A DNA stretch of 64,000 nucleotides from Bacteroidaceae bacterium (GTDB taxonomy: Bacteria; Bacteroidota; Bacteroidia; Bacteroidales; Bacteroidaceae). The position numbers and the translations under genes were made by a program. Of this stretch, positions 31,622 to 45,820 are shown piece by piece. Each line of letters opens with the position of its first letter. The first letter of the stretch is position 1. The stretch spans positions 327,294-391,293 of the forward strand of contig CABIVS010000003.1 of assembly GCA_902362375.1 (NCBI GenBank), written 5' to 3'. Below the pieces are notes generated by a model. The model was given only the letters and a program-made list of their open reading frames with translations, had not been told where the DNA came from and made no database searches.

Positions 31622-32682
31622 TGTAAATAATTATTTTTACTAATTGACCATGAATAATATGTACCTATAAAAAAAGGAGTATTGAGAATCCTAAAATCTC
31701 CTTTTATATAACGCAAAGATACACTATTTGTTATTAAAAAAAAGTTAGATATCCATTCTTTTTCTATATTCTCTAAAATTAGTGGCATCCCATTTCCTCT
31801 TCCCGGTTGTCGAGTAGTAGATCCCAATCTACCTTTTAAGGCATTTAGTAATATGTCTTTTTCGGAATTCATTTCTGTTTTGGTTAATAACATGGATTCT
31901 TTATACGAATTAATAATCCCTCCTCCCATGTCCACAAAAACATAGTGCATTGATTGTGTATGTACGTCAGAATATCTATGTATCCACCAGTTTATATTTT
32001 TGTTTTTGATGCCATGTTCTGCTGCATTTCCAATTAGCTCAACTAATAAATCGTATAATGGTTCAAATGTATCTTCTATGTCAATATTGTTTTTTAATTC
32101 TTGGGTGAGTTCCGCTATTAAGTTAACATCTACTAATTTTGAACGTTCTATCTCTTTGTCCGTTACTTGTTCATTTTCGTGGACTAAAGGCATTTGCTCT
32201 TTTTTTCTAATATTATAGTTATGGTGGCGTAATAGGTTTAAGCCAGTTGAAGAAATAAACTTGAGATATTCGCGAAGGTTCTCTGGGTTGTCATCATCAT
32301 ATTTTTCAATTTCATAAACAATTTCATCTATATTTGAATATTTGTGTGCATAGTATGCAGTATCCAATCTCTTCTCTAATAATTTGGGATTTAGTATAAG
32401 TAGATTCTTATTAGGTTGTAGGGATTCTTTTTCTAATTTTGCAATGAATATAATATAAGCTTCCTCGGATATATTTTTTAAATCATGGCAATCTATATAG
32501 ATTGGCTTTTTAAGGTCTTTTGATAGTTGCTTTATAAAAAAGAGAGACTCTTCGATATATTTTTCGTTTAACGAAAATATAACAGGCATTTTTAATGTGC
32601 GCTTCTTTGTCGATATATGATAGTACATATATGATGCACACAAAAATAAGAAGATGCAAACTTCGATGATTAATCCTGTCAT
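31597..32682 (-). CDS. Membrane-anchored GHKL ATPase
   Basis: 360 residues from the ATG at 32682, chosen because it begins the membrane helix (MTGLIIEVCIFLFLCASYMY). An in-frame ATG at 32721 lies inside the leader RNA stem and would add 13 residues. After the helix comes a strand-helix region that may be STAS-like, then a GHKL domain: N box LLVELIGNAAEHG (about 214-226), G1 FVDMGGGI (about 249) and G2 PGRGNGMPL (about 295). No phospho-accepting His helix is present, so it is closer to anti-sigma kinases or MORC-like ATPases than to sensor kinases. It follows promoter/leader copy 1 and heads a three-gene operon. Confidence 0.82.
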   Translation of the reverse strand: MTGLIIEVCIFLFLCASYMYYHISTKKRTLKMPVIFSLNEKYIEESLFFIKQLSKDLKKPIYIDCHDLKNISEEAYIIFIAKLEKESLQPNKNLLILNPKLLEKRLDTAYYAHKYSNIDEIVYEIEKYDDDNPENLREYLKFISSTGLNLLRHHNYNIRKKEQMPLVHENEQVTDKEIERSKLVDVNLIAELTQELKNNIDIEDTFEPLYDLLVELIGNAAEHGIKNKNINWWIHRYSDVHTQSMHYVFVDMGGGIINSYKESMLLTKTEMNSEKDILLNALKGRLGSTTRQPGRGNGMPLILENIEKEWISNFFLITNSVSLRYIKGDFRILNTPFFIGTYYSWSISKNNYLQWKNSLSQ

Positions 32683-32707
32683 CTCTTTACTAAATATTTT
32701 AATGGGT

Positions 32708-32846
32708 GAATCCCTTATCATCGTGCGCCAAAAGGTTTATATATAGACCTTAATCCGATTTTACGGATTACACGACGAAAAGGGATTCATGTTTTATATA
32801 ATTATTTGGCGAATGCTAAGGTACAATCTTTTCTGAATGTAACAAA
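32708..32846 (-). promoter_or_regulatory. Promoter and three-way-junction leader RNA, copy 1
   Basis: Minus strand: -33 TTTG (32846-32843), 19-base spacer, -7-like TACCTTAG (32823-32816), then the conserved GCCAAATAATTATATAAAA and a fold closed by stem P1 (32788 down to 32708; 9 bp, one U-U mismatch, then 9 bp including one G-U and a final U-G), with hairpins P2 (AATCCG/CGGATT) and P3 (AAGGT/ACCTT) inside. CGCCAAA at the RNA 5' end can also pair with TTTGGCG between P3 and P1. Immediately upstream of the GHKL ATPase operon. Copies 2 and 3 at 34567 and 43834. Confidence 0.85.
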
Positions 32847-32921
32847 AAGAAAGCGGAGTTTTTTACTCCACTTATTTGTGACTAATATTGATTGAAATAA
32901 TTATGTAGATTTGTAACGAAT

Positions 32922-34343
32922 TTATTCCACAGTGTTGACGAGCATGAAATTTTCCAGTAAATCAATTTTGTTAGTAAAGTATGATAATGGTATCATTTTA
33001 TTATTTTTGAATACCCATTCTAAAGCCTCGGACAATAATTCTTTATTGATAAATTTTACATTAAAGTTGATTTCTAATTTTGATTGAGATGATGTTCTAG
33101 TTAAAAGTTCATCATTATTGTCTGAATTTTGATAACTACAGACATAACATCTTAATAATAAAGCTAATGTATAGTAAAAATAGCGGTTAGGAGAATAACT
33201 TGCGCTTAATTTAACGTTAAATATTAGTTTTGGAAGTATAGTTTCTATTTGATCTATAAGTTCTTGTATTGAGTAGCTTTTATAACTGATTTTATCATAG
33301 CAATCAGGTTCACAAATTCGAAGATATGTGAGTAAACATACTAAATCTGAATATATGATTTGATTATAGTTATACATATTTAATGATAGACGAATATGAG
33401 TGAATATCTTTTCTATTTGTCTCAATGATAGATTTTTATACATGAATAGAATGTTAGCTATAACTAAAAAAGACTCCTTTATTCCATCTCTTGAATCTCT
33501 CGCCTTTTCATAGCTATCAAAGCCATAATAATCATATAAATAGTTACAGAATTGTCCTATATTAGGGGCTGGTAGTATATATTCAATATCAACAAACCTT
33601 TTCAAGTATTCATTGGCGTCTATTAGATCACTTCCATAATATCCACGTATAGAGTTACTTAATTGTTCCTTATCTATGGATAGGACAAATACTATATTAG
33701 GTATGTTGAAAAGATGTTTAATTCGTTCTAAAGTTTTTACTGCATAATGTGGGTTGCATCGATCAAGTTCATCTATGATAAATATCAATGGTTTTTTGTC
33801 ACAGACTTCATTAACGTATTTTTCGAGTTTTTCCCGAAATTGTTTCAGGCTATATTTTTGGCTTTCATAATTTTCTATTTCTTTTTTCAACATTGAAGCA
33901 CCCTCTTCAATTCCATCGCAAAGTATATCAACAGTTTCTTCACCCGCATATTTCTTTACTACTCCCTTGAACATTGCGGGAGCCGCTTTCAATACGATTT
34001 TTCCTGCTGTATTTATGACTGATGTTAGTGCTGCTTCTGCTTTTTCTTGTGGATTCATTTTTTTTATTTCCCCAAGTAATCCGACAAGGGGATCTGATAT
34101 GAAATCATTTTCCCAGGCATTAAAATACAATGTGTGGAAATGATCTAATTTAAGATATGCTTTCCACATTTCTACAAATGTGGTTTTTCCTGTTCCCCAT
34201 TTGCCATTTATTGCCAATACGAAGCCTTTATTATATGTAGTGATAATCGTTTTAAGGACTTCAGCATACTTCTCCCGATCCAGCTTACAATTTTTAAAAG
34301 GTTGTTCTGCTGGGATTTCTAATTTTTCAAGTTTGCATTTCAT
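32922..34343 (-). CDS. KAP-family P-loop NTPase
   Basis: 473 residues. Walker A GKWGTGKTT at 47-55, the KAP hallmark FNAWEND soon after, and Walker B PLIFIIDELDRCNPHYAVKT (about 183-200) followed by VFVLSIDKEQL. A hydrophobic, possibly membrane-associated stretch lies at about 105-130. KAP NTPases include the F-plasmid PifA phage-exclusion protein and ATPase parts of other defence systems. The gene lies between leader copies 1 and 2, next to a divergently oriented metallopeptidase gene. A+T content is higher than in the phage structural genes, a sign of separate origin. Probably a phage-exclusion gene; not proven. Confidence 0.85.
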   Translation of the reverse strand: MKCKLEKLEIPAEQPFKNCKLDREKYAEVLKTIITTYNKGFVLAINGKWGTGKTTFVEMWKAYLKLDHFHTLYFNAWENDFISDPLVGLLGEIKKMNPQEKAEAALTSVINTAGKIVLKAAPAMFKGVVKKYAGEETVDILCDGIEEGASMLKKEIENYESQKYSLKQFREKLEKYVNEVCDKKPLIFIIDELDRCNPHYAVKTLERIKHLFNIPNIVFVLSIDKEQLSNSIRGYYGSDLIDANEYLKRFVDIEYILPAPNIGQFCNYLYDYYGFDSYEKARDSRDGIKESFLVIANILFMYKNLSLRQIEKIFTHIRLSLNMYNYNQIIYSDLVCLLTYLRICEPDCYDKISYKSYSIQELIDQIETILPKLIFNVKLSASYSPNRYFYYTLALLLRCYVCSYQNSDNNDELLTRTSSQSKLEINFNVKFINKELLSEALEWVFKNNKMIPLSYFTNKIDLLENFMLVNTVE

Positions 34344-34354
34344 AGGTTCTCGTT

Positions 34355-34573
34355 TTAGATTGTATTTATGGTAAAAACAATAAATAAATGCTTATTTTTA
34401 GGTTTAATAAGAGTATGTGATCTATCGGATGGCCGAGTTAGATTCCATTGTTTAACTAAAACAGCTTTGTTAGTTTTATGCCATTCTCTTATTGATTTTT
34501 TGTGCTTTTTTTCAATATTGCCATTAAGCTGTTCGCAATTTTCAATTGTAAAATAGTGAAATGGGCGAATCCC
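34355..34573 (-). pseudogene. C-terminal gene fragment between leader copy 2 and the KAP gene
   Basis: An open frame of ~72 codons with no start, bounded upstream by stop codons inside leader copy 2. It reads like protein (EQLNGNIEKKHKKSIREWHK) and ends 12 bases before the KAP start codon. It is probably the tail of a gene whose front was replaced by the leader element during cassette exchange. Confidence 0.4.
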
Positions 34574-34682
34574 TTATCATTGTGTGCCAAAAGGTTTATA
34601 TAGAGACCTTAATCCGATTTTACAGATTACACAATGAAAAGGGATTCATATTTTATATAATTATTTGGCGAGTGCTAAGATA
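34567..34682 (-). promoter_or_regulatory. Promoter and three-way-junction leader RNA, copy 2
   Basis: Same element as copy 1. The -7-like box is TATCTTAG (34682-34675), but the -33 TTTG is missing at 19 bases. P1 runs 34647 to 34567; its inner half is TCATTGTG/CACAATGA, against TCGTCGTG/CACGATGA in copy 1, a compensatory change. P2 keeps pairing through a U-G (AATCTG/CGGATT). It lies upstream of the KAP gene (same strand) with a gene fragment between, and ~85 bases from the divergent metallopeptidase. A CAGAC-AAT-GTCTG palindrome lies at 34703-34715. Confidence 0.8.
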
Positions 34683-34765
34683 TAAATAAAAAATAGATTT
34701 GGCAGACAATGTCTGATATTTTATTTATATTTACTGAAAAATAATTATAAAATAAGAATGATGTG

Positions 34766-35836
34766 ATGAAAATGAATGATTGGATTAAGAAAATTTATGT
34801 GGAATCTTTTATGTATGATTTTGGTATTCATTTTATTAAAAGATTTCATTGGTTATTGTGGATATATGATAAAACAGAGTGGAATTGGGTTGGTAGATTA
34901 TTATGTAGTTTTGAAAATTTTGAATACTACAGAGAAACTAAACGTAGGAAAGAATTTAGTAATAATTATCAAAATGTACTTGAAGAACATCTAAATGAAA
35001 TAGTAACACTGTTAGAAAAAAGTTCTTTACCTTCCCCAATTTTATTAGAAGCGATAAATGATACTAGTGGTTTTGAACACTTTAATGCAGAGTCTGTACC
35101 TTGGTTTGGTGAGAATTATATAGCTGTAAATTCAGGTATTTGTTTTTATAGTCATATTTTAGTAAGATGTTTGCAACCATATTTTATAGATATTCAGTTT
35201 GGACAAAATTCGTGGTGGGGGCAACGCTTGAATTGGTATTGGAATAGAAGGTTTGTAATATCATCCGTAGCTTATGTTAGTAAAGATTTTCAATCTGCTT
35301 TGATGCTTATGTCTTTAATTCCTGAAGATGATTCTTTATTAGAGGGTATTGAAAAATTTGTTATATCTCATGAGTATGCTCATTTAATGATCCGAACGTA
35401 TGGATATGAAAAATTTAAATTTAATTCTTATTTTAATAAAGAAACTGTTTTGATGATAATGAATGATGAGGAAGTTGCAGCTGACTCTATTGCATTGCTT
35501 ATTTTATATTTTATGAGTAAAAGGGAGAGTAAGTCGTTTTATCTTTTATATGGTCCCCAATTTATTTTTGCTATATTGAGTTGTTATGAACAGGGAAAGC
35601 TGATTGAGACTCCTAAATCTCATCCTTCTTTTTTTTCTAGATATAATTATCTAAAAGATATGATTAATCAGCTTGAACCGAATGATTTATATGAAAAATT
35701 TGATGGAGTAATTTGGAATATATGGGAGAATAATAAGGACAAAATTAAGATTCAATCAATAAAAAAAATAGATTTCCTAAATAAGTATGTTGACATTTGT
35801 GGGAAACTGTATTATAGATATGGTTCTGAAGGCTAA
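34766..35836 (+). CDS. HExxH zinc metallopeptidase (M48-like)
   Basis: 356 residues from the ATG at 34766 (a GTG one codon earlier is possible). The zinc motif is HEYAH (His202, Glu203, His206); NDEEVAADSIALL (about 233-245) supplies the third ligand, as in M48-type enzymes, and SHPSFFSRYNYL resembles the conserved S-H-P-x-x-x-x-R of that group. No signal peptide. It is on the plus strand, against the late operon, so it has its own expression, probably in the lysogen. Its 5' end faces the KAP gene across leader copy 2. It may form a two-part defence cassette with KAP, or be a separate moron. Substrate unknown. Confidence 0.82.
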   Translation: MKMNDWIKKIYVESFMYDFGIHFIKRFHWLLWIYDKTEWNWVGRLLCSFENFEYYRETKRRKEFSNNYQNVLEEHLNEIVTLLEKSSLPSPILLEAINDTSGFEHFNAESVPWFGENYIAVNSGICFYSHILVRCLQPYFIDIQFGQNSWWGQRLNWYWNRRFVISSVAYVSKDFQSALMLMSLIPEDDSLLEGIEKFVISHEYAHLMIRTYGYEKFKFNSYFNKETVLMIMNDEEVAADSIALLILYFMSKRESKSFYLLYGPQFIFAILSCYEQGKLIETPKSHPSFFSRYNYLKDMINQLEPNDLYEKFDGVIWNIWENNKDKIKIQSIKKIDFLNKYVDICGKLYYRYGSEG

Positions 35837-35857
35837 TATAGTTATTTGATATACACA

Positions 35858-35909
35858 TTTTAGTGTAGAAAAGAGAGGGACAATAAATGCTCTTTTTTTC
35901 TACACTAAA
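35858..35909. terminator. Two-way terminator between convergent genes
   Basis: TTTAGTGTAGAAAAGAG and its complement form a long stem with A/T flanks on both sides. It separates the plus-strand peptidase gene from the minus-strand regulator gene ending at 35921. Confidence 0.85.
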
Positions 35910-35920
35910 AATAGGTAACA

Positions 35921-36388
35921 TCAGAAATTTGCAACTTCATAATATTTAAAGAAGTAGTAGAGGGCTACCTTATGCCATTTAGTTAATTCTTTGTCACCAG
36001 ATAAAAGTGATGATACAGTGCATTTGTCGATGCCTGTATAGTTGCTTAAGTGCTTGCTTTTTAAGCCAAGCTTTTCCATACGCTTCTTAATCCAATCGAC
36101 GGTAATGCTGTCGATATCCTTACGATCAAAGTTTACAGCCGATACAGTCAGCTTCCAATCATCCGGGATTTCTCCTTTAAACATTTCTCGTACACGTTCG
36201 GTTAGTTCCTTTTTGGTAAGGAACTTGTCATTTACTAAGTCTTTTTGCTCTGCGCGAACGATTAATCGGCTATCGGAGTAAGAGACTACTTCTATGGATA
36301 TATGTCCATAACGTTGATACTGCTTTGCGAATTCGTCGATTCGCTTTTTACTCTCGGCAGAGAGAGGTAGTAAGTCTAAATTCTTCAT
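35921..36388 (-). CDS. HTH regulator
   Basis: 155 residues. The N-terminal ~95 residues are a mixed domain I do not recognise. The last ~55 contain an XRE-like helix-turn-helix (WIKKRMEKLGLKSKHLSNYT and then GIDKCTVSSLLSGDKELTKW). It is second in a two-gene operon with its own promoter and twin operators at 36853-36921, so it is probably autoregulated. The gene order (small protein, then HTH protein) resembles HigBA-type toxin-antitoxin loci. The first gene does not look like a known RelE-fold toxin, so that reading is tentative. Confidence 0.75.
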   Translation of the reverse strand: MKNLDLLPLSAESKKRIDEFAKQYQRYGHISIEVVSYSDSRLIVRAEQKDLVNDKFLTKKELTERVREMFKGEIPDDWKLTVSAVNFDRKDIDSITVDWIKKRMEKLGLKSKHLSNYTGIDKCTVSSLLSGDKELTKWHKVALYYFFKYYEVANF

Positions 36389-36469
36389 AATTCATCAATT
36401 TACGATTTGATAATCGGGTATTTAATAATGCAATATACTTTGTAATGGAGGGGCTTTCGCCCCTCCGGA

Positions 36470-36805
36470 TCACAATTTGATGAGTCTCATTTGCCCGATG
36501 TCGAAAATAGCAATCTGTTTGTTTTCACGCCCGAATTGCTTGGCTTCTTCAAGGTTGGTGAAAATCCTGATGGAGTCGAAATAAAACTGATTGTTTTCTT
36601 CGTTAAGCCATCCACCGACTTTCTTTTCGTGCATCAAAGCATGATTAAGAACTCTTTTCAATCCTTCTTCTCCGAAACTGTCTTGAGTCTCAAGATAGGC
36701 GACTGAAATACCTTTTGTGACCTTTTTTAAGGTTGTGAGGTCAACCGTGAATCCATCAGGATTCGCATCTGCTATCTTTAGGATAGCCTCGAACAATTGT
36801 TCCAT
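36470..36805 (-). CDS. 111-residue protein paired with HTH regulator
   Basis: Starts MEQLFEAILKIADANPDGFT. Mixed alpha/beta, ending in a strand-rich segment (QIAIFDIGQMRLIKL). First gene of the operon whose promoter overlaps twin 21-bp repeats. I do not recognise the family. A toxin or a lysogeny-expressed modulator are both possible. The 81-base gap to the regulator gene includes no terminator. Confidence 0.65.
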   Translation of the reverse strand: MEQLFEAILKIADANPDGFTVDLTTLKKVTKGISVAYLETQDSFGEEGLKRVLNHALMHEKKVGGWLNEENNQFYFDSIRIFTNLEEAKQFGRENKQIAIFDIGQMRLIKL

Positions 36806-36852
36806 AATATAAAAGAACTTATGCGGACGTCACCCGCGTTTGTTTGACACTG

Positions 36853-36921
36853 CAAATATATAGAAAAGTTTGCTACTAACAAACTTTTTGTTGTTTATTT
36901 GTTTGCTACTAACAAACTTTT
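36853..36921 (-). promoter_or_regulatory. Promoter with twin operators
   Basis: Minus strand: TTTG (36883-36880), 19 bases, TATATTTG (36860-36853), an exact Bacteroides promoter. Two near-identical copies of GTTTGCTACTAACAAACTTTT lie at 36868-36889 and 36901-36921, each an inverted repeat GTTTG-N7-CAAAC, 33 bp apart (about three turns). One covers the -35-to-spacer region. Probably the binding sites of the HTH protein at 35921-36388. Confidence 0.8.
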
Positions 36922-37786
36922 ATCTGTTTCTTAGACTTTCTTCGGTTTCCTCTTTACGTCTGATCGATTCGTCCATCGAATACAGGGCATCAAGTAAAAG
37001 ACCTTTTCGGATTTCCGGCTTTTTAGTCATGTCGGACTGTGCCAGGGAATCAAGAAGGCGGAGCTGTGCATCGAATACGCGACCGTAACTACCCTTTCCC
37101 TCTCCTGAAAAAATACGCGGATAGGAATTGGCCATACATGACAGACTTCCTAAAATATACCAATACATGAGTATTTTTCTGTCTTCAGGAAGATGGTGAA
37201 GAATGGCTGCATCTTTGTCTAATTGATTAATGTCGAATACCTTATTACGATGCCACAAACAGGCTAGTAGGTGGTCGATCTTCGTTGGATCTGAACGCAT
37301 TGCATCAAGATAGGTCTGTAGATACATGAATTGTTCAAAGGTAATATCAAGCAACTGATCTTCTGGGCCGATGAATTTCCAAAGCCGGCAATGAATGGTT
37401 GGATATGGGTTGGTTGTCAGATCCGGTGTCAGGTGATAGTATTTGCGCATGGGCAATGAACTATCTTCTTCCGAACAAATAAGGAAGTCAAACAAGTTGG
37501 CAAGCATTGATACTTCTTCCGGATGAAGAAGATAGCTATGGCGACGGACATAGAAGCGGACTGTTGGACTTTCTTGCCCAATTCTGATACGTACATACTC
37601 TTTAAATATTTTCTTATGCCGGCATACATGAGCTTTCAGGCAATAAAGCATCATGTATACCTTAACTTGTTCTACCGGTATATCTGACTTTGTGAGCTTG
37701 ACTAGATAAAGAAGCTGTTTCGGGGTGAGTTCGTCCCAACTTCCTGGAAGTGTGTATGTATCATCATTAATTTGTATAGTATGCAT
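36920..37786 (-). CDS. Tail assembly chaperone / connector-type protein
   Basis: 288 residues from MHTIQINDDTYTLPGSWDEL at 37786; the longer frame from 37930 runs over the end of the previous gene and is rejected. GSWDELTPKQLLYLVKLT is a common start of phage proteins in this position in Bacteroides (from memory). The protein is helical and acidic at the C-terminus. It follows the connector gene with a 4-base gap. Probably involved in tail initiation or assembly. Confidence 0.6.
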   Translation of the reverse strand: MHTIQINDDTYTLPGSWDELTPKQLLYLVKLTKSDIPVEQVKVYMMLYCLKAHVCRHKKIFKEYVRIRIGQESPTVRFYVRRHSYLLHPEEVSMLANLFDFLICSEEDSSLPMRKYYHLTPDLTTNPYPTIHCRLWKFIGPEDQLLDITFEQFMYLQTYLDAMRSDPTKIDHLLACLWHRNKVFDINQLDKDAAILHHLPEDRKILMYWYILGSLSCMANSYPRIFSGEGKGSYGRVFDAQLRLLDSLAQSDMTKKPEIRKGLLLDALYSMDESIRRKEETEESLRNR

Positions 37787-37790
37787 AGTG

Positions 37791-38714
37791 TTACGATATT
37801 GAGGTGAATAGTTTCTTTTCTTTAGAATTGAAGTCAATAGCTTGTGACGTTGTTTCAATTCCCAGTTCTTCCGCATTTTCGGCCAGATAAGTGTGTATTT
37901 TCCCTGAATAATAAGTTGCCTGGTCTGCAAAAAAATTGCCGTTTGCGTCCGGATCCTGATAGATTGGTCGAATAGTGGGAGTATATTCGATCGTTCTGCC
38001 GGCTACATGTTGTTCGGTTGTTTTCTGTGAGGTATATAATTCGGCAGTTTTATTGGCTAAATAGCGGATGATATAGTCAATAAGTACTTGTTGTTTGGGT
38101 GTTTCGGTCTCTTCTGAAAGAGCTTCTTTTAGTATGTCATAGACTTTATCCGTTATCATTTCTCGAATGTTGTGTTCTTGAAGTTGACGAATGGTAGGGA
38201 ACATGATACGATAAGATAGGATAGAATAATCAATGTCTACCATACCGAGATCTTGGAACTCTGCTGCATTACGAATGAAGCAAAAACGGGGTATATTATC
38301 GATAACATAATCAGGATAATCCTTTTTGTTTTCCTCCAGGTATGATATTAGCCGGTCAAGTGCTTGCATTCCGCGAAAACAGAGATTCTTTTTTGCTGCT
38401 GCGATCTTAGTGTCACTGGCAGGAGAACGCTGTCCCTGCACGTTACTTACTGTGATACCGGCATCACCGAACATAACACCCAGTTCATCAGATGCGAGCA
38501 TCAGGGTTAATGGGCCGAGGGCACGCAGTAGTTTGTTGTATAAGTCAGATCCTTTGTCTTCATGAGCTTTACTGATCGTTGCTTTACCGATATACGGTTT
38601 GATGTATATATCCAGTGCATCTTCGATGTATGGTTCGATTGATTCGTAAGGCAGTGAGGAGTTGATCTTTACTACCTTTTTGAGGGTGTCGATGTCGGGG
38701 ATTAGTGCGTTCAT
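37791..38714 (-). CDS. Head-tail connector-type protein (DUF6712-like)
   Basis: 307 residues, almost entirely helical, starting MNALIPDIDTLKKVVKINSS. It is directly downstream of the portal gene (1-base gap). Position and fold prediction suit a head-tail adaptor. Resemblance to DUF6712 proteins of Bacteroides phages is from memory and moderate. Confidence 0.6.
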   Translation of the reverse strand: MNALIPDIDTLKKVVKINSSLPYESIEPYIEDALDIYIKPYIGKATISKAHEDKGSDLYNKLLRALGPLTLMLASDELGVMFGDAGITVSNVQGQRSPASDTKIAAAKKNLCFRGMQALDRLISYLEENKKDYPDYVIDNIPRFCFIRNAAEFQDLGMVDIDYSILSYRIMFPTIRQLQEHNIREMITDKVYDILKEALSEETETPKQQVLIDYIIRYLANKTAELYTSQKTTEQHVAGRTIEYTPTIRPIYQDPDANGNFFADQATYYSGKIHTYLAENAEELGIETTSQAIDFNSKEKKLFTSIS

Positions 38715-38715
38715 T

Positions 38716-40137
38716 TTATTCTGTTTCTGGGGTTAAACCTGTATTCTTTGTCGCTCCGGTACCTTGGTCTAGCGTGGTGAGTTGACAATTAGTCACCGAG
38801 AAATAAATATCTTTAGGCCAGTTATTCATGGCTTTTGCAAAGTAGAGAGGTTCCAATGTTGCATCCTGATACATCTTCATGAGTGTCTGTTCTATGATAA
38901 ATAACTCCCGTGCTTCGGTACCATTGATACTTTTTCCCTTACCTGGTGCGGATCCGATTATCGAAGGATGTACGCCCATACCGTAACACATCATATTGCT
39001 GACCTCTTCGCTGTCTTCAATATACTCACCACCTTTGAAGAAAGATTCGAGTGGAGTAATAATGATGTCTTTTTCTTCAAAGCCTTTTACACGATCGTAG
39101 CGAAAGTGAGAGACAAAGCCTTTGCCGGCATTTTCTTCACCGGCAAGAAAATCATTCATATCCTTCAGGAACTTTTCTTTGCGTGCTTTCTTCTCGTCAT
39201 CTTTGACTATGCCTTCAGATGCAAATAACTTTTCCCAAAAAGGCTCTTGAATATACACAATGTACCGCAGTGCCATTTGATTTTTAATCAATGATTTTTT
39301 GAAAACAGGGATTGCACTGGAGAAGTCATACCAGCCGGATGCAAAAACACTCCACCAATATGGATGACTATAATAAAACCGTCCGGGTGTAGAGATGCGG
39401 AGGTTATGGATAAATCTCCGTTCTTTTCCTACAATTTTCTCTCCTTTGTCATTTGGAGCAAGTCCCATTCTCATTTTGAGGTCGAGTAGTGGAGTCTGCC
39501 GATCGAGCAGGGGAGTGGCAATCAAATCTGTTGGTGTACCGGTATGCCATTCTGCAGAATAACCGTGCCATTCGCTTTTACCAGTCTTTTCGTCAATTTC
39601 ACTGATCCTGGAACAAGTGGACTCCTTAGCTTTGATTTGTACGAGTTTGGGGGATTTATTGTCATTGTTGAATATATACTCCAGGTAGCCGTCATAGAAT
39701 ATAACCAGATCGTTTGCCAGCTCCATACGGACAAAATTGAAGTTGTTGTTTTCAAGGAATTCAAAAATTTCCGGCTGCTCGTACGGAAGAACTTCCTCTT
39801 TGACTATTTTCCTCGTTTTAGGGTCCCGGTATTTCCGATAGACGAGTATGCTGTCACCGAATACAACTTTATTCTTGAATTCGATATTGCTGCCTATGGT
39901 GACGTTGGTACCGATTTTTTTCATGATGTCATAAGGCATATGATTATTTCGTCCGCGTGGTATCCATTTGATTGGATTCTTTTCTCCTTTGGGAGCTACT
40001 TCGATAGGTGTAGGATTCTTATCAGTGGCGATATCACTGTTATCACTGAATTTGATAACATTCTTTCCACCTTTTAAGACGGCATAAGTATCATAGCCTT
40101 TCATTATAAGATTGATTGAGGGTTGTTGTTGCTTCAT
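38716..40137 (-). CDS. Portal protein
   Basis: 473 residues from the ATG at 40137, which overlaps the upstream stop as TAATG; the frame from 40179 is rejected. Features of HK97/SPP1-type portals: an N-terminal clip/wing region, a long helical segment with YGMGVHPSIIGSAPGKGKSI, then ARELFIIEQTLMKMYQDATL. The dodecameric ring at the capsid vertex is the DNA channel and docks terminase. It is separated from the terminase gene by ~5.7 kb of accessory and lysis genes, which is unusual. Confidence 0.75.
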   Translation of the reverse strand: MKQQQPSINLIMKGYDTYAVLKGGKNVIKFSDNSDIATDKNPTPIEVAPKGEKNPIKWIPRGRNNHMPYDIMKKIGTNVTIGSNIEFKNKVVFGDSILVYRKYRDPKTRKIVKEEVLPYEQPEIFEFLENNNFNFVRMELANDLVIFYDGYLEYIFNNDNKSPKLVQIKAKESTCSRISEIDEKTGKSEWHGYSAEWHTGTPTDLIATPLLDRQTPLLDLKMRMGLAPNDKGEKIVGKERRFIHNLRISTPGRFYYSHPYWWSVFASGWYDFSSAIPVFKKSLIKNQMALRYIVYIQEPFWEKLFASEGIVKDDEKKARKEKFLKDMNDFLAGEENAGKGFVSHFRYDRVKGFEEKDIIITPLESFFKGGEYIEDSEEVSNMMCYGMGVHPSIIGSAPGKGKSINGTEARELFIIEQTLMKMYQDATLEPLYFAKAMNNWPKDIYFSVTNCQLTTLDQGTGATKNTGLTPETE

Positions 40138-40397
40138 TAGAAATATACTTTGAGATTGTTGAATTTGGTGATAAGGCATCGGCGGATTTTTCTCGGAGTA
40201 GCTTCTCCGGCAGGTAATACGTTAATAGTGCTTCCACTACTATGGAATGAGGTCAATACTGCACGATCGTAGGTGACAAGTTCGCCTGTGCTCTTTTTAC
40301 AGAATTCAATGGAGAATTCGATAGGCTTACCGTCTTGTCTACGCTCCATGAGTTTCCATATCTTACTTTGATGGATTCTTTTGTCTATACTTTGCAT
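40137..40397 (-). CDS. 86-residue phage protein, unknown
   Basis: Basic, beta-rich protein (MQSIDKRIHQSKIWKLMERR). It overlaps the spanin-like gene before it by 35 bp and the portal start by 1 base. No family recognised; perhaps a small portal-associated or head protein. Confidence 0.6.
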   Translation of the reverse strand: MQSIDKRIHQSKIWKLMERRQDGKPIEFSIEFCKKSTGELVTYDRAVLTSFHSSGSTINVLPAGEATPRKIRRCLITKFNNLKVYF

Positions 40398-40902
40398 AAA
40401 AAGGTAGTATGAGAATGATTAGTAATATTGGGATACCAATGATTAAGCCATACTTGAATCCATCATCAATTCCGTCCGCGATAGAACCGCTGGCATTCTT
40501 TTGGGATTCGGATTGTTTGTTTTGCTGAAACGTGACGTCAGTCGTTGTTTCCTGTTTATCAGATATACGTGTAGTGTCATCTTTCTGAAGCAAAGTTTTG
40601 ATCGTTGTCTTGCTCCCTTCAATCTCGATATTCGATATTGGGGGTAGTCCGGTAGATGGGTCTGCTGATTTCGTTGTGTCGAAGTTAACTTTAACTTTCC
40701 AGTCTTTACCCGTTTGTTCCTGGTTGAGGTTGAATCGGGAATAGGTATCTTCGGTTCTAATTCGCAGTGCGGAATCTGTGATAGAAAGATCGCTTTGTTC
40801 TTGAGTACTACGATTGTTTTGAAGAGTACTACGGCAACTACACAGTAGCCAGGCAATAGCAAGGCAAGCAAGATAGATGAGAGTGTGTGCATGATGTTTC
40901 AT
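40363..40902 (-). CDS. Lipoprotein with C-terminal TM, unimolecular-spanin-like
   Basis: 179 residues. The N-terminus is a lipoprotein signal with lipobox LCSC (Cys about residue 23), then ~110 polar residues with coiled or extended character, and a C-terminal membrane helix (YGLIIGIPILLIILILPFY) followed by a basic tail. A lipid anchor for the outer membrane at one end and an inner-membrane helix at the other is the layout of unimolecular spanins (phage T1 type), which fuse the two membranes at lysis. It overlaps the gene upstream by 4 bp. Assignment by architecture. Confidence 0.65.
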   Translation of the reverse strand: MKHHAHTLIYLACLAIAWLLCSCRSTLQNNRSTQEQSDLSITDSALRIRTEDTYSRFNLNQEQTGKDWKVKVNFDTTKSADPSTGLPPISNIEIEGSKTTIKTLLQKDDTTRISDKQETTTDVTFQQNKQSESQKNASGSIADGIDDGFKYGLIIGIPILLIILILPFYAKYRQKNPSK

Positions 40903-41246
40903 TGTTTACGGTTGTTACACGTTAGGTTTACACATTTGAATCGTTTAAGATCAGCTATTTCTTTTTCGTTTTCTGCTATCTTTTTATCTTGGGATAGCTG
41001 GTTGCTTTCCAGCTTTTCTATACGGGTAGTCCATTTTGTTTCGCTTTCTATTTTCTCTTTTTTCATAGCCTCCTTGTCAGCTCGCAGGTCAGCGATTAGT
41101 TCCTGATATACATCTTGTACGGAACTAAGAGCTTTGGCTTCTGCTTGCTTCTTGGTGTATTTGAGCGTAATAACTCCAGTGATGGATGACAAGAGACCAC
41201 CACCAAGCAAGAATGTGAGTAGGTTTTGTGTAATGACATCGTTCAT
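40899..41246 (-). CDS. Single-TM coiled-coil protein, lysis-associated
   Basis: 115 residues from MNDVITQNLLTFLLGGGLLS at 41246. One N-terminal membrane helix (about 5-27), then a Lys/Glu coiled coil (about 35-105) and a Cys-containing end (CVNLTCNNRKQ). It overlaps the spanin-like gene by 4 bp. It could be a holin, an inner-membrane spanin or a tail-fibre-like membrane protein. Lysis is the most likely area. Confidence 0.6.
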   Translation of the reverse strand: MNDVITQNLLTFLLGGGLLSSITGVITLKYTKKQAEAKALSSVQDVYQELIADLRADKEAMKKEKIESETKWTTRIEKLESNQLSQDKKIAENEKEIADLKRFKCVNLTCNNRKQ

Positions 41247-41420
41247 GACCTTCTTTTTAAGCAAAGGTATCAGGTGTATGGCAGGCGATAAAGGACAGGG
41301 AGGAGAGCCGATTTTGACAAAATTAATTTTCTTTACATTTTTAAAAGTGCAGCATATAAGGGAAATTGAAAAACTTTAGGTCGAAACTTTTTTTCAGGGC
41401 GGTGCGTGGTCTTGCGACAG

Positions 41421-41446
41421 ATAAAGGGGAAATTTTTCCCCTTTAT
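41421..41446. terminator. Palindromic hairpin
   Basis: ATAAAGGGGAAA and its complement with a 2-base loop, in the 41247-41561 gap. A minus-strand terminator is plausible, but U-tracts are weak. The remainder of the gap has no coding signal apart from the terminator at 41514. Confidence 0.5.
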
Positions 41447-41513
41447 TCAACTGCTTCATTTGATAATCAGAATTTTCTGAATTTTGTTGTGGGAATTGCA
41501 TGAGACAAGAAAA

Positions 41514-41541
41514 AAGCACAGGTATGTGATAACCTGTGCTT
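41514..41541 (-). terminator. Terminator of the 42.3-41.6 kb operon
   Basis: AAGCACAGGT/ACCTGTGCTT hairpin followed on the minus strand by TTTTTTC, 21 bases after the stop at 41562. Confidence 0.85.
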
Positions 41542-41561
41542 CCTAATGAAGAAACTAATGA

Positions 41562-41684
41562 TTATTCCGGCAGTAGAATTTTGATTAGTTCTTGAAGTTG
41601 TGCTGCCGCCCGTTGTCTTTCGTCAGCGGGAGTATTTGGATTGAGCAGCTTAGTTACGAGTTTTAGAGCTTGTTCTCTGTTCAT
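41562..41684 (-). CDS. 40-residue paralogue of the 29160-29300 protein
   Basis: MNREQALKLVTKLLNPNTP then DERQRAAAQLQELIKILLPE. The frame could start at 41750, but alignment with the paralogue puts the start at 41684. Helical, amphipathic. Last gene of a three-gene operon whose leader resembles that of the other operon. Confidence 0.7.
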   Translation of the reverse strand: MNREQALKLVTKLLNPNTPADERQRAAAQLQELIKILLPE

Positions 41685-41774
41685 TGCTGTTGAATTTGAA
41701 TTGATTGAATGCATAACGTACAGATAGCCATACAGCTTTCTTTTCTGCATTTTGAATATTGTGTTGATAAAAGC

Positions 41775-42062
41775 TCATCGTTGACTCACTTTTTTTATCT
41801 TATTGTTGAAGTCAAATTTAATAATTTTACAAGAGAATTTTTTATCTTGATTAGCAATAATCTTTTTCTTGTAATTGGTTAGCGTTTCAATTACAGCATC
41901 TATGCAGTTTTCTCTGATAGAACCTATTGTTGATTCTGCTGTCCCTATGTAAACTCCGTTCATATCAAAAATGGCGGATTCTCCCTCTATATGAATGAAA
42001 CCTGACTTATTGTCTATAATGCGGCATTGCGAAGGGATAATTCGTTCTACATATTCCTTCAT
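41775..42062 (-). CDS. 95-residue phage protein, unknown
   Basis: Starts MKEYVERIIPSQCRIIDNKS, with a good ribosome-binding site AAAAGGAGG. Alpha/beta with a basic C-terminus. It overlaps the gene before it by 4 bp. No family recognised. Confidence 0.65.
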   Translation of the reverse strand: MKEYVERIIPSQCRIIDNKSGFIHIEGESAIFDMNGVYIGTAESTIGSIRENCIDAVIETLTNYKKKIIANQDKKFSCKIIKFDFNNKIKKVSQR

Positions 42063-42268
42063 AGCTCGCCTCCTTTTCCATTAAATGTAATATTGACTGT
42101 GCCTCCATTGGCGTGGATTACAATACCTCTGTGCGATTTATTCACTCGGAGACGTTCGTTACCTTCTGCTACTTCAAGGCAAATGTTGGAAAGGGCTTTC
42201 TGAAGTTTTTCTACGGATATATAGCGTCCGTTTGCGCTTTGGTTTTTCTTTTTCATTTTGGAGATCAT
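42059..42268 (-). CDS. 69-residue basic phage protein, unknown
   Basis: Basic N-terminus (MISKMKKKNQSANGRYISVE), C-terminal beta segment (GGTVNITFNGKGGEL). It follows a structured ~200-nt leader with its own promoter, and overlaps the next gene by 4 bp. A small nucleic-acid-binding protein is possible. Confidence 0.6.
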   Translation of the reverse strand: MISKMKKKNQSANGRYISVEKLQKALSNICLEVAEGNERLRVNKSHRGIVIHANGGTVNITFNGKGGEL

Positions 42269-42297
42269 TTAAAATGAAATAATATGTTGATTAAATA

Positions 42298-42500
42298 CGG
42301 GAAGGGAACAAAAAAGTTCCGCTTTCCCGTTGATCTCCACCTGAAACAGGCAGTGGGCGCATTAACGCTCCACACGGGGGTCGGAACTATATTATGAGCT
42401 ATGGACATAAAAAATGCCCGCAGCGAATAATTGGCGAGCCTACTCGCCTGTTTCAAATGGAGATCGCTACAAAGATGGTGAATCTTTTTTAATGAGCAAA
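42298..42500 (-). ncRNA. Promoter and structured leader / noncoding RNA
   Basis: Minus strand: TTTG (42500-42497), 19 bases, CATCTTTG (42477-42470). The predicted RNA 5' end coincides with a 20-bp closing stem whose arms are 42465-42446 and 42351-42332 (18 Watson-Crick pairs and two G-U). Inside are a GGCGAG/CTCGCC hairpin, a GCUCGC/GCGGGC stem followed by U6 (possible early terminator) and smaller hairpins. A further GTTCC-containing hairpin lies at about 42300-42328. It may be a free RNA of ~135-165 nt or the leader of the operon starting at 42268. Confidence 0.6.
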
Positions 42501-42571
42501 ATAAAAAAATAAAAAAGCAGTTTAAAGGTTGAATTTAACATAAACATTCTTGGCATAAAAATGTTTTTACT

Positions 42572-42579
42572 TATATTTG
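42572..42579 (+). promoter_or_regulatory. Promoter for the small plus-strand membrane gene
   Basis: TATATTTG at 42572-42579, with TTGG about 18 bases upstream in place of TTTG. The predicted start site near 42586 lies after the in-frame ATG at 42561, so the ATG at 42603 is the start. Confidence 0.6.
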
Positions 42580-42602
42580 CGAACGATAATCACTCGAAAT
42601 AC

Positions 42603-42803
42603 ATGTTTGACTTATTCAGAAATATACTATCTTTTATTGGTACTTTTTTAGTAGTAAGTACAAGTACAATGTTATTATTGCAAGGAATCGTGTGTTGTGT
42701 TACATGGAATTGGAACACTAAAAAAAATACCGATTACAGAATTATTGCAATCGGTATTGTTGTAGCTGTTATATTAATCCCCTTTTATTATTTACCCGCT
42801 TGA
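42603..42803 (+). CDS. 66-residue two-TM membrane protein (moron)
   Basis: From MFDLFRNILSFIGTFLVVST: a hydrophobic helix, a Trp-containing loop (CCVTWNWNTKKNTDYR) and a second helix (IIAIGIVVAVILIPFYYLP). It is transcribed against the late operon from its own promoter and is tail-to-tail with the PUA-like gene (stop codons abut at 42803/42804). This is a typical lysogeny-expressed moron layout; superinfection exclusion or a partner role with the neighbouring gene are possible. Confidence 0.65.
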   Translation: MFDLFRNILSFIGTFLVVSTSTMLLLQGIVCCVTWNWNTKKNTDYRIIAIGIVVAVILIPFYYLPA

Positions 42804-43820
42804 TTAATAATCGCGTCTTCCTTCGTTTTTAGCTTTTAAAATTTCGATTATGGGTTTCATGTCGTCGGGGGATTTAATTTTTAAAGAGTCCATAGCACGC
42901 GCTGCGGAATTAATCAATTCTCTGTCTGCTGCTCTATCTAAATAATCATTGATAGCACCTGGAATACCTGTTGTATATAACTCGAAACCTTGGTCTGTAT
43001 TATATCTTAATCCGCCTCCTGTTAAAGCTGTAATGAATAGTCCAAAGGCTAATAGTTTAAATATATTTTTGGTTGATAATCTTAACCATCCAGGCGATTC
43101 CATCTGAATTTTCATAATCAATGCATCTTCATGCGGTATGTCATTTTGACGGCAGAAATCTTCAATTAATGTAGAGATGGCTTTTATATCACAGAAATCA
43201 TCTAATGATACTTCATTTTGCGTCTGTATTTTTAATACCAAATGTAGAATGTCATCTTTTACATAACAATCATTCATTATGCTATCAATATAAGGTGCGT
43301 AATTTTTTACATCAGATAGAATGTGACGAGAGTTGAACATTAATTGAAGGGTGGGAGGAAGGGATCCTCTTATTGTATTATATTTCCATTGAATATGATA
43401 GCGTTTTTTGAAGTTGCAATGGTGATCTTCGTCAATTATAGGGTATTCTTCCTCATACATTTCTCCATCTACTATACCAAAGGCTACATTGGAGGCTCCT
43501 GACGAAGGAATAATTATAATATCTCCGGATTTAATGTCACGGGAAAAACGTAGTAACTGTGCCACTGGATATCCAGTGTTTCGAAGATTAGGATAACGGT
43601 CTTGAAACATTGCTTTTAAAACTTCTTTTGCAGTTGTTTCCGATTCAGGTAGTAATTTAATATCCGCTAAAGTTACTGCGTTATATCCTACTGCGATATA
43701 ATTACCATTAAAGAACTCATCAAAGTATGAGCCTCCCATAGTACGTACCATCCAGTAGTTTTGTTCAGAGTTTATGTTTTTTATGTCGTCTACAAGTTCT
43801 TCAAAATTAGAATATTCCAT
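42804..43820 (-). CDS. PUA/EVE-like domain protein with membrane segment
   Basis: 338 residues. Residues ~20-125 resemble the PUA/EVE-like modified-base-reading fold placed at the front of restriction and defence proteins (YWMVRTMGGSYFDEF, IAVGYNAV, GDIIIIPSSGASNVAFGIVD). A middle helical region follows (about 130-235), then a membrane helix (IFKLLAFGLFITALTGGG, about 252-270) and a polar helical tail. Sensor first and membrane segment later suggest an abortive-infection protein. Its start ATG directly follows the stop of a short leader ORF (TAAATG) in leader copy 3. Family not recognised with certainty. Confidence 0.6.
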   Translation of the reverse strand: MEYSNFEELVDDIKNINSEQNYWMVRTMGGSYFDEFFNGNYIAVGYNAVTLADIKLLPESETTAKEVLKAMFQDRYPNLRNTGYPVAQLLRFSRDIKSGDIIIIPSSGASNVAFGIVDGEMYEEEYPIIDEDHHCNFKKRYHIQWKYNTIRGSLPPTLQLMFNSRHILSDVKNYAPYIDSIMNDCYVKDDILHLVLKIQTQNEVSLDDFCDIKAISTLIEDFCRQNDIPHEDALIMKIQMESPGWLRLSTKNIFKLLAFGLFITALTGGGLRYNTDQGFELYTTGIPGAINDYLDRAADRELINSAARAMDSLKIKSPDDMKPIIEILKAKNEGRRDY

Positions 43821-43833
43821 TTAGTAATATGGC

Positions 43834-43973
43834 GAATCCCTTATCATTGCGCGCCAAAAGGTTTATATAATGACCTTAATCCGATTTTACGGATTACGCA
43901 ATGAAAAGGGATTCATATTTTTATATAATTATTTGGCGACTGCTAAAGTACAATGTTTTCATTATATGACAAA
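43834..43973 (-). promoter_or_regulatory. Promoter and three-way-junction leader RNA, copy 3
   Basis: Minus strand: TTTG (43973-43970), 19 bases, TACTTTAG (43950-43943), the conserved GCCAAATAATTATATAAAA, then P1 (43914 to 43834) enclosing P2 and P3. The inner P1 half is TCATTGCG/CGCAATGA, compensating relative to copies 1 and 2. A short ORF beginning in the 3' strand of P1 (MIRDSPYY) stops one base before the ATG of the PUA-like gene. Confidence 0.85.
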
Positions 43974-44029
43974 AGAAAGTGATATATTTTTGTTTAGAAT
44001 AGATGATAATCTTATTTTTTTGATTTTAC

Positions 44030-44095
44030 TTTTTATTATTTGGGAAGAATATACCACCAGCACTTGTTCCTGAAAGAGTGAAATAGAAATTCATA
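44030..44095 (-). pseudogene. Remnant of a terminase large subunit 3' end
   Basis: About 66 bases matching 45850-45915 with three or four mismatches. It encodes MNFYFTLSGTSAGGIFFPNN before a stop, against MNFYFTLPGTSAGGIFFLNN at the real terminase end. The GNAT/ASCH cassette lies between the two copies. The differences indicate a related but distinct phage as source, not a fresh duplication. Confidence 0.85.
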
Positions 44096-44159
44096 TCATC
44101 TTTGCGTATATCTATAGGGAACGAAGTAGTAGTTGCAACTAAAGGCAGAAGTATTGGCT

Positions 44160-44224
44160 AGATTGTTATAAATATAAAAGCACAAATAAGATATATATTG
44201 GTGCTTTTATATTTATAACAATCT
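44160..44224. terminator. 24-bp perfect hairpin after the ASCH gene
   Basis: AGATTGTTATAAATATAAAAGCAC at 44160-44183 and its exact complement at 44201-44224 would exceed a normal terminator stem in length; the arms start AGATTGTTATAAATATAAAA. It lies 16 bases beyond the ASCH stop codon and closes the GNAT/ASCH cassette. Confidence 0.75.
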
Positions 44225-44240
44225 ATGAAGTTTGAAGAAT

Positions 44241-44642
44241 TTAGATACTCAATGTTGGTTCTAAATCTTCCCCTACTATATACTTAAATGATTGAGGAGC
44301 AACAAAAGAAGAAAATAAATCAAATGGATTGATTGGATTCTCATAAAGTTTAGGTGAAGAAATTTTTAGCGCGTAACCTCGTTTACGACCTTCAAAATAT
44401 TGGTCGAAGAATTCTTTGGTAATTCCTGAAGCCTCTTTGGTCTGATCCCATAATTGTTGAGGTTCTTTTTCTATGATTGTTTCAACGGTAAATTCTCCGA
44501 CGATCATTCCCTCCGGTTTTGTAGAATACACCACTACTTGATTTACATTTTTGGTAAATATAGCTTTTCTGTATTCATACTTTTTGTTTCCTGCAAATAT
44601 TTCACGAACAAATTCCGGTTTAATCGATAATAATACTTTCAT
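44241..44642 (-). CDS. ASCH-domain protein
   Basis: 133 residues. The ASCH signature is clear: LLSIKPEFVREIFAGNKKYE then YRK, a central strand VVVYSTKPEGMIVGEF, and FEGRKRGYALKI near the end. ASCH is a PUA-related fold that binds RNA or nucleosides; one characterised member, E. coli YqfB, hydrolyses N4-acetylcytidine. It overlaps the GNAT-ASCH gene by 23 bp, so the two products are made together. A role opposite to the acetyltransferase is an attractive inference. Confidence 0.85.
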   Translation of the reverse strand: MKVLLSIKPEFVREIFAGNKKYEYRKAIFTKNVNQVVVYSTKPEGMIVGEFTVETIIEKEPQQLWDQTKEASGITKEFFDQYFEGRKRGYALKISSPKLYENPINPFDLFSSFVAPQSFKYIVGEDLEPTLSI

Positions 44643-45675
44643 TTATTTTTCCTCTTGAATTTATATTGTTAAATTGCTCATCTGTTATTTGGAGGAATCC
44701 CCAGTATTCATTGCCATCTAGTCCAACCTGTTCAATTAGCTCATTACGAGTGACCCTTCTATCAAATGCAGCATTATAAGTCATTTTAATAACAACCATA
44801 TTATATGTTGTGTACCACTTCTTTAACTCATTTTCATCAAATATGCTATAGGCATTAGCATATTTTATAAAGTCATCTACAGAAGCGAAATCTTTAGCTT
44901 TCTTAATTTCTTCAACCACGCATATAGAGGAAATTACGCTTCTATATTTAGCTGGTCCTGCATGATCAGAAGTACGATATATAAGTAAGATGTCCCCTTT
45001 TTCAAGTTGATCAAGCCCATTCATACTTGATACATATATCTTATGGATACTATTTGTATGTGTAACATCTTTAATGAGCACATCCTTGCTCCTTTCTTCT
45101 GTATTCAATATTGAATCAGGAAAAAGAGGAGTGTGGTATTCCGGTTTTACTGATAAAATGAATTTTCGGACATCCTTAGCATGCACGAAAGGATAATCTA
45201 ATAGTATATCTCCAGTATAACTTGTCATTGATTTTGTAAAAACAAGCTCTGGCTCATCCTCTTCTCCTTTAGTTCCGTATTCTGTGAATCCATATCTTTG
45301 TAATAGCGTGATTAGACCTGTATGTTTTTTATAGATGGTCACATAAATTTCACAGACTCCTATATATAAAGCAGCTGCAATGATTTTCTTGACAAAGTAT
45401 TCTCCTAATTTTGTTTTATGTGCATCTATCTTGAATGTACCGACTTTCAATCTACTGGCAGCAGGCATTGGAGGATTAATGTCATTTAATTCTTCTGTTT
45501 CATGTTTCATATAGAGAAATCCCTGGAGCTTTCCTTGCGCATCTTTTTGAATGAATGCTTTAGCTCCTTTTTTAGCCTTTTTAGTGTACCATTCTGAAAA
45601 TTCGGGATAATCTTGTTTTAGTGAATCGAAAAAAGGATCAGATAAATCTATATCGCAAAATTTATTTTGTTTCAT
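44620..45675 (-). CDS. GNAT acetyltransferase fused to an ASCH/EVE-like domain
   Basis: 351 residues. The N-terminal half is GNAT-like: an acceptor-side region GFLYMKHETEELND, a strand-loop KVGTFKIDAHKTKLGEYFVK corresponding to the acetyl-CoA pyrophosphate loop, and LLQRYGFTEYGTK near the end of the domain. The C-terminal half begins FILSVKPEYHTPLFPDS, a second copy of the motif that starts the downstream ASCH protein, and continues LEKGDILLIYRTSDHAGPAK in PUA/EVE style. It has a near-perfect ribosome-binding site (AAGGAGG), its own promoter and a pseudoknot-capable leader. It may acetylate a nucleic-acid or tRNA target. Confidence 0.8.
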   Translation of the reverse strand: MKQNKFCDIDLSDPFFDSLKQDYPEFSEWYTKKAKKGAKAFIQKDAQGKLQGFLYMKHETEELNDINPPMPAASRLKVGTFKIDAHKTKLGEYFVKKIIAAALYIGVCEIYVTIYKKHTGLITLLQRYGFTEYGTKGEEDEPELVFTKSMTSYTGDILLDYPFVHAKDVRKFILSVKPEYHTPLFPDSILNTEERSKDVLIKDVTHTNSIHKIYVSSMNGLDQLEKGDILLIYRTSDHAGPAKYRSVISSICVVEEIKKAKDFASVDDFIKYANAYSIFDENELKKWYTTYNMVVIKMTYNAAFDRRVTRNELIEQVGLDGNEYWGFLQITDEQFNNINSRGKINESIIID

Positions 45676-45695
45676 AGTTGCAACCTCCTTAGAAC

Positions 45696-45820
45696 ACTCT
45701 TTAGCAATAATGTGCCCATTTTTATGTAGAATTCATTTTGAATAACACCAGTACTAAAGAGTTATAAACAATAATATTTAGGGCACGACAAAGGTTGGAA
45801 TAATATTCGGGAAAAACAAA
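45696..45820 (-). promoter_or_regulatory. Promoter and pseudoknot-capable leader of the GNAT/ASCH operon
   Basis: Minus strand: TTTG (45820-45817), 20 bases, AACCTTTG (45796-45789). The RNA should begin near GTGCCC (45786-45781), which pairs with GGGCAC (45717-45712). ACTCTTTAG (45762-45754) pairs with CTAAAGAGT (45704-45696). The two helices interleave, giving an H-type pseudoknot order. The ribosome-binding site AAGGAGG lies just after the last arm. Confidence 0.6.

Follow-up and report, generated by a model that had tools for sequence, protein, structure and literature searches.

Structured leader RNAs that act in cis are already known as a kind. In class 1 integrons, the aminoglycoside-responsive leader of aac/aad genes at attI1 is described as carrying a putative leader peptide at a first ribosome site, and the ribosome site of the cargo gene is proposed to become unmasked by a change in structure (PMC7588185). 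RCd22, the AbiF noncoding RNA of a C. difficile prophage, is reported to be a structured RNA that neutralises one protein family by binding (PMC12373285). HMP2_4078 is a 109-bp palindromic candidate RNA that occurs mostly in Bacteroidetes near phage-related domains, and the text of the corresponding report gives it neither a function nor a link to cargo (Fremin and Bhatt 2021; PMC8040213). Here we describe an RNA element, absent as a family from Rfam 15, that occurs repeatedly in a 64,000-nt stretch of DNA from a Bacteroidaceae bacterium (GenBank assembly GCA_902362375.1, contig CABIVS010000003.1, positions 327,294 to 391,293), hereafter the window, and that appears to serve as a common 5' leader of unrelated phage accessory genes. 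All coordinates are those of the window; its elements, promoters, short open reading frames (ORFs), cargo genes and hairpins given below lie on the minus strand.

The window contains a phage, with genes for a tape measure protein (23978-27868) and a primase-like protein (56019-59081). Three minus-strand copies of the element constitute its only direct-repeat family with three copies of at least 40 nt. As claimed in a first-pass annotation of this DNA, the copies are near-identical (mean column identity of 91%); in the covariance model they span 32699-32813 (copy 1, cmsearch score of 110.6 bits), 34558-34672 (copy 2, 107.6 bits) and 43825-43940 (copy 3, 110.9 bits; fold z -4.47). In copy 1, the 5' strand of a pseudoknot (32810-32806) is followed by the 5' arm of the closing helix P1 (32789-32770), the 3' strand of the pseudoknot (32731-32727) and the 3' arm of P1 (32726-32707). 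The same parts lie at 34669-34665, 34648-34629, 34590-34586 and 34585-34566 in copy 2 and at 43937-43933, 43915-43896, 43857-43853 and 43852-43833 in copy 3. The -7 boxes noted earlier, which are of the Bacteroides type, occur in all three copies, and a TTTG at -33, 19 nt upstream of the box, occurs in copies 1 and 3. The promoter of copy 1 (32816-32846; letters read directly) consists of TTTG at 32846-32843 and TACCTTAG at 32823-32816, that of copy 3 (43943-43973) of TTTG at 43973-43970 and TACTTTAG at 43950-43943; copy 2 has the box TATCTTAG at 34675-34682 without an exact -33 TTTG. The three helices (P1-P3), their G-U pairs and the compensatory substitutions among the copies likewise match the earlier description. 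The RNA was assigned correctly to the minus strand, since the reverse strand of the copies scores only about 30 bits compared to 116-123 bits and G-U pairs are common.

First relatives were obtained from pattern scans and blastn, and a covariance model was then built from 12 sequences. This model was run on 149 genomes of the genus to which G001 belongs (the genome with the Bacteroides timonensis locus L012) and detected the element at E 1e-5 in 20 of them, including two source genomes; one genome had four copies. After a second model and three additional phage-contig patterns, the tally stood at 65 matches over the 55 sources searched; removal of one reverse-strand match and of identical sequences left 57 distinct elements. 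One of them, L078 (41 bits, no promoter found), is a doubtful member. A covariance-model search and a comparison with Rfam had been suggested by the first-pass annotation; the element is neither confined to this phage nor devoid of covariation, and no family of Rfam 15 reached its gathering score on the window elements. Permissive Rfam scans of window positions 32600-34800 and five relatives gave sub-threshold matches only, with a best E on the element of 0.3-0.5. Wider model searches were positive in 5 of 151 genomes of the family, 3 of 393 of the order, 2 of 395 of the phylum, and in 1 of 3 and 1 of 2 genomes of two small genera. These counts include genomes already known to carry the element, and rarity outside the genus is not established by them because at most 9 or 25 candidates per large genome were scored. 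In phage and plasmid collections, blastn matched few records (2, 1, 0 and 1), and the window element is 73.8% identical to the plasmid copy. The match in MT836966 (L003) was rejected as an element, as it covers promoter letters only and neither model finds the element there. The pattern matches L004, L005, L007-L010 and L013-L016 were discarded as chance palindromes, since they either did not score or stayed at or below the 28.7 bits of L008 (E 3e-4). Among open papers, supplements excluded, none plainly concerned with this element was found.

Judged by its pattern of base changes, the element is a structured RNA, a three-way junction in which P1 closes P2 and P3. In an alignment of 58 distinct rows (including the reverse-strand match and L078), 96.5% of cells were paired, and 30 of 36 base pairs displayed two-sided changes. 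Such changes occurred in 377 cells compared to a shuffle mean of 117, and the covariation score was 0.551 compared to at most 0.114 with slid partners. The alignment was fitted to the nested helices and thereby favours them; the pseudoknot was absent from the model and was tested apart. Its 5' strand, GCC[C/A/G]A at the extreme 5' end, pairs with the junction, and all five pairs were present in 50 of 53 elements, the remaining four of the 57 lacking a findable 5' strand. Partner shuffles gave a mean of 22.5, and 0 of 10000 reached 50. The variable pair is C-G in 29 elements, A-U in 13, G-C in 10 and A-A in 1; in L040, one of the four set aside, GTCCA and TGGAC were seen by eye and amount to a further pairing change. 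We regard this covariation as decisive sequence evidence for the fold. Pairing between CGCCAAA and TTTGGCG had been noticed before and taken for an alternative fold. The pairing is real, but it lies outside P1-P3 and is compatible with them, and since the five pairing letters are located exactly between P3 and P1 and covary, it is more aptly taken for a pseudoknot. Conserved pairing with compensatory changes, a general mark of structured cis leader RNAs, is present.

In 38 of the 57 elements, the GCC strand is preceded at a distance of 0-8 nt by a promoter box of the strict form TAnnTT[TA]G, with a chance expectation of about 0.009 per element. With a looser box and spacings of 3-6 nt allowed, 43 elements had a distance of 4 nt to the GCC strand and 10 a distance of 5 nt, together all 53 in which this strand was found. 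Because the promoter is so close, and with the usual geometry of Bacteroides promoters, transcription should begin with the pseudoknot strand or no more than two letters ahead of it. In 56 of the 57 loci, an ORF of 28 or more codons has its start within 130 nt, copy 2 of the window being the exception, and the start codon of this cargo gene follows P1 by 6-24 nt in 52 of the 56. Judged by sequence, the element thus qualifies as the 5' leader of the gene on the same strand, equipped with its own promoter. The predicted cost of opening the start region of the cargo had a median of 16.2 kcal/mol in 54 elements (all but L021, L078 and copy 2 of the window) and of 6.1 kcal/mol in 200 control ORFs, 7% of which reached 16.15. 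These 200 were taken from the 362 ORFs in the same loci that encode 150 aa or more, cargo genes not being excluded, and each was folded with an upstream flank fixed at 110 nt.

The genes behind the element are unrelated to each other. They encode a KAP NTPase (PDC-S20), a GHKL-like operon, relatives of PDC-S02, PD-Lambda-5_A and PDC-M11A, RNase_T/BRCT proteins (PDC-S48; exonucleases), proteins with nSTAND1, HSDR_N, MACPF or HIRAN matches, one protein that matches Trypco2 below the threshold, and small peptides (about 30-60 residues). A PADLOC family was matched at 1e-5 by 7 of 13 followers of at least 150 aa (picked from 21 for diversity, not at random, the KAP protein counted) as opposed to 2 of 20 randomly drawn other genes (Fisher p 0.013); none of 6 shorter followers matched. 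The matches of L023 and L040 are at domain level, and the PDC families are candidates. Defence genes are therefore probably enriched among the cargo without being universal. The earlier proposal of a shared regulatory RNA for phage-borne defence genes holds as far as a shared leader with its own promoter is concerned, as indicated by the 57 relatives, the covariation and the spacing, but not with regard to all cargo being recognisable defence genes.

Clusters taken to represent the virion module occur in 21 of the 23 loci mapped. They are c3 (tape measure), present in 12 of these 21 loci, and c0 or c1, counted with the module since they accompany c3; PHROGs gave no function for c0 and c1. The element lies on the strand of these clusters in 20 of the 21 loci (exception L098), and the plasmid locus L113 and L114 are without them. 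The backbone of the window is matched at 92-98% by the phage record MT835542.1, with the exception of two gaps (30447-35919 and 42506-45848), which hold different or diverged cargo, including a KAP gene at 80%. The cargo gaps have 30-32% G+C compared to 40-42% in the backbone. In the window, the one sequence in which terminators were sought, terminator-like hairpins lie between the KAP gene and the promoter of copy 1 (32851-32873) and behind the copy-3 gene (42726-42758). With their own promoters, such hairpins, a location among virion genes and atypical G+C, the cassettes have the features of phage morons, a fit based on the cargo swapped relative to MT835542.1, the low G+C and the placement among virion-module genes.

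A short ORF in the leader had been overlooked. In 39 of the 57 elements, an AUG is located exactly at the 5' edge of P1 and opens a mostly MNPFSxRNP-like frame with its stop in the P2 loop. In the window, the corresponding peptides are MNPFSSCNP (copy 1, 32761-32790), MNPFSLCNL (copy 2, 34620-34649) and MNPFSLRNP (copy 3, 43887-43916). The AUG is retained together with an A-rich context in the largest clade; for Bacteroidota, a preference for A at -3 and avoidance of stray AUGs near starts have been reported (PMC6847099). On a tree of the 56 elements other than L078, a set selected without regard to the AUG, 3-4 changes fall on the base of the A of the AUG and six on position -2, as opposed to 13-25 on each of the other 14 upstream columns; there were 4 gains or losses of the AUG. 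Within the AUG clade, the A never changes, and the usual stop site reads TAA in 21, TAG in 9, TGA in 4 and otherwise in 5 elements. This pattern reads as selection for initiation at this place, not for the peptide, in part of the family. In six elements (L065, L066, L067, L070, L071 and L090), an AUG lies inside P1 instead. In L065, L066 and L090, the frame begun by this AUG has 24 codons, and two bases separate its end from the cargo start codon, an arrangement suggestive of termination-reinitiation coupling.

Taken together, we tentatively favour translational control, in which P1 hides the start region of the cargo and ribosomes on the short ORF open P1, and to which we give a little less than an even chance. 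According to this model, Bacteroides phages would make the mRNAs of accessory genes from their own promoters with the element as 5' leader. Once finished, the leader would keep cargo translation low, with P1 closed and clamped by the pseudoknot; by computation, the closed RNA buries the start region of the cargo. A ribosome that starts while the leader is being synthesised, or that lingers on the short ORF, would hold the 5' arm of P1; the 3' arm would thereby stay open and the cargo gene would be translated. In this way, cargo output would depend on leader translation and could rise when ribosomes slow down or stall. In computed folds, the AUG region of the leader was open in the nascent RNA (5.2 kcal/mol) and closed in the full leader (17.0 kcal/mol) in 38 of 38 cases, and masking by a ribosome at the leader stop lowered the cost of opening the cargo start region in 27 of 36, from a median of 14.0 to 9.2. 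A farther-reaching version, in which one leader RNA serves as a phage-wide translation sensor that reads ribosomes on a throw-away ORF and lifts cargo synthesis when translation is disturbed, for example by a competing phage, is doubtful.

Several observations weigh against translational control by the short ORF. The AUG at the edge of P1 is absent in 18 of the 57 elements, and no AUG ORF enters P1 in 9 (L061, L062, L064, L089, L092, two in L091, L058 and L077), so the short ORF cannot be essential family-wide. The short-ORF peptide displays no excess of changes at third codon positions (27, 29 and 27 changes by position), indicating that the peptide itself is not visibly selected. The complete conservation of the A in the AUG clade is partly by construction because this set was picked by its AUG, and the retained A could be a tertiary contact. 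Some cargo start regions are not buried (7.3 kcal/mol for copy 1 of the window, 2.3 for L081), the ribosome mask gives no lower cost in 9 of 36 cases, and the folding energies disregard the pseudoknot.

That elements without an AUG retain the whole fold would be expected if the junction instead bound a small molecule or a host or phage protein that opens or closes P1, the short ORF being incidental. The near-invariance of the CC after P1 within the AUG clade (2 and 1 changes) also fits such a sensor or protein-bound leader. This possibility is on the unlikely side, as the cargo genes share no common metabolism that points to a ligand and the conservation of the AUG is left unexplained. The spacing between promoter and GCC strand, which sets the 5' end at the pseudoknot strand, lends some weight to protection of the 5' end: first nucleotides locked in a three-way junction, a topology that recalls the exoribonuclease-resistant RNAs of flaviviruses, would shield the mRNA and keep low-level cargo mRNAs alive in the lysogen. 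Neither the 6-24 nt between P1 and the cargo start nor the retained AUG is explained by such a shield, and we consider it improbable.

Still less probable is that the repeat acts mainly at the level of DNA, as a homology arm or an attC-like structured recombination site for cassette exchange. Cargo is indeed swapped or diverged at these sites between near-identical backbones, and every tandem cassette begins with an element. However, a covarying pseudoknot, common G-U pairs, fixed promoter and start spacings and divergence of the copies are what is expected of an RNA and not of a homology arm. The fold of attC is not known to be pseudoknotted. In an integron cassette, a recombination site would be expected behind each gene; the present element is tied to the start codon of the gene that it precedes (52 of 56). 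The first-pass annotation had also considered an antitermination site like HK022 put, an RNA that acts on RNA polymerase to allow read-through of terminators. A structured RNA at the start of a phage transcript would suit this role, but the element is followed immediately by start codons, two of the window cassettes have terminator-like hairpins at their ends, and read-through would presumably turn on virion genes in the lysogen; such a function is hardly to be expected here. Translational control through P1 remains the reading we prefer.

The genes behind the window copies were examined individually. Copy 1 is followed after 24 nt by a GHKL-like gene (31597-32682, 361 aa) and by a gene for a STAS-like DUF4325 protein (31301-31621; PF14213, 5e-6). 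The former has no Pfam match, and its GHKL label is supported only indirectly: residues 207-348 resemble the L018 protein (28% over 150 aa, 3e-13) with motifs like the N, G1 and G2 boxes, and L055, the N-terminus of which resembles that of L018, has weak HATPase_c matches. The KAP label was confirmed (32922-34343, 473 aa; PF07693, 1.7e-39; PADLOC PDC-S20, 2.6e-169), but copy 2 does not directly precede the gene, the start of which lies 222 nt past P1 of copy 2. Between them, at the usual cargo start site, a 69-codon open frame without ATG occupies 34344-34565. The gene behind copy 3 (42804-43820, 338 aa), which starts 12 nt after P1, had been labelled PUA-like; it has no Pfam match and is a relative of PDC-S02 (PADLOC, 3.3e-22), and the PUA-like ASCH protein (44241-44642; PF04266, 6.6e-6) is encoded by a separate gene.

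This ASCH gene adjoins a gene for a PDC-M11A relative (44620-45675), the product of which is 58% identical to the L083 protein (PDC-M11A, 5.7e-144), itself encoded behind a standard leader copy. Ahead of the PDC-M11A relative, 45686-45787 is probably a fourth, divergent and decayed copy of the leader that had been missed (score of 24.5 bits with filters off, E of 8e-5 over 20 kb). The score alone is not decisive, as the unrelated L008 palindrome reaches 28.7 bits; the assignment is based on the parts and on the place before this gene. The box AACCTTTG is followed after 4 nt by GCCC, and GGGC lies ahead of the 3' arm of P1. P1 is retained, P3 is lost, the edge of P1 has no AUG, and the fold is not below that of shuffles (z -0.23). 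The last approximately 64 bases of a gene encoding a 573-aa protein (45849-47570) occur twice at 95% identity, at 45852-45915 and, behind the PDC-M11A/ASCH cassette, at 44032-44095, as if cargo had been stacked via recombination at the 3' end of this gene. Elsewhere in the window, ARAGORN predicted a tRNA-SeC (tca) at 59908-59982 that is not among the Rfam matches at gathering score.

Two further arrangements were observed among the relatives. In L095 (10024-11464) and L091 (5780-6981), three leader elements occur in tandem, each with a different small gene behind it. Members of protein cluster c7, about 160-300 aa as called and membrane-like by eye, are encoded in 13 loci (L002, L021, L079, L084, L085, L087, L088, L095, L098, L100, L101, L102 and L107), in all of them tail to tail with the leader-RNA transcript. 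The facing leader ORF encodes a 31-56-codon, often proline-rich peptide, except in L021, where none of 28 codons is nearby. One c7 member each was scanned against Pfam and PADLOC, and no match was obtained. The c7 gene and the tiny peptide represent a candidate two-gene cargo system.

The occurrence of the same leader in many gut Bacteroides viruses ahead of unrelated accessory genes, several of which are likely anti-virus genes, suggests one common control of phage cargo; if so, prophage cargo would be commonly controlled in a major gut genus. The element would also provide a handle on new cargo genes, being whatever lies behind it, and a tractable RNA for studying what prophages sense. It already points to uncharacterised small proteins, including the repeated pair of tiny peptide and membrane-like protein.

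Among known systems, erm-type translational attenuators are similar in that a short ORF occupies the 5' arm of a helix, with the 3' arm immediately ahead of the main start; in contrast, no drug gene was seen here, the peptide shows no sign of selection, and part of the family has no AUG. HK022 put is also a structured phage RNA at the 5' end of the transcript, whereas the present element sits next to a start codon, at the head of a single cassette. HMP2_4078 and the present element may be one RNA, a comparison made by description and not by sequence. RCd22, as described, shares the location of a structured RNA beside a phage-borne defence gene; in the present family, however, one RNA stands ahead of many unrelated genes. 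The class 1 integron leader, as far as its description goes, similarly serves cassette genes of differing origin from one leader. Here, in contrast, each gene has a leader of its own instead of sharing one in an array, the leader is a three-way junction with a pseudoknot at its 5' end, and the cargo consists of accessory and defence-like genes of phages.

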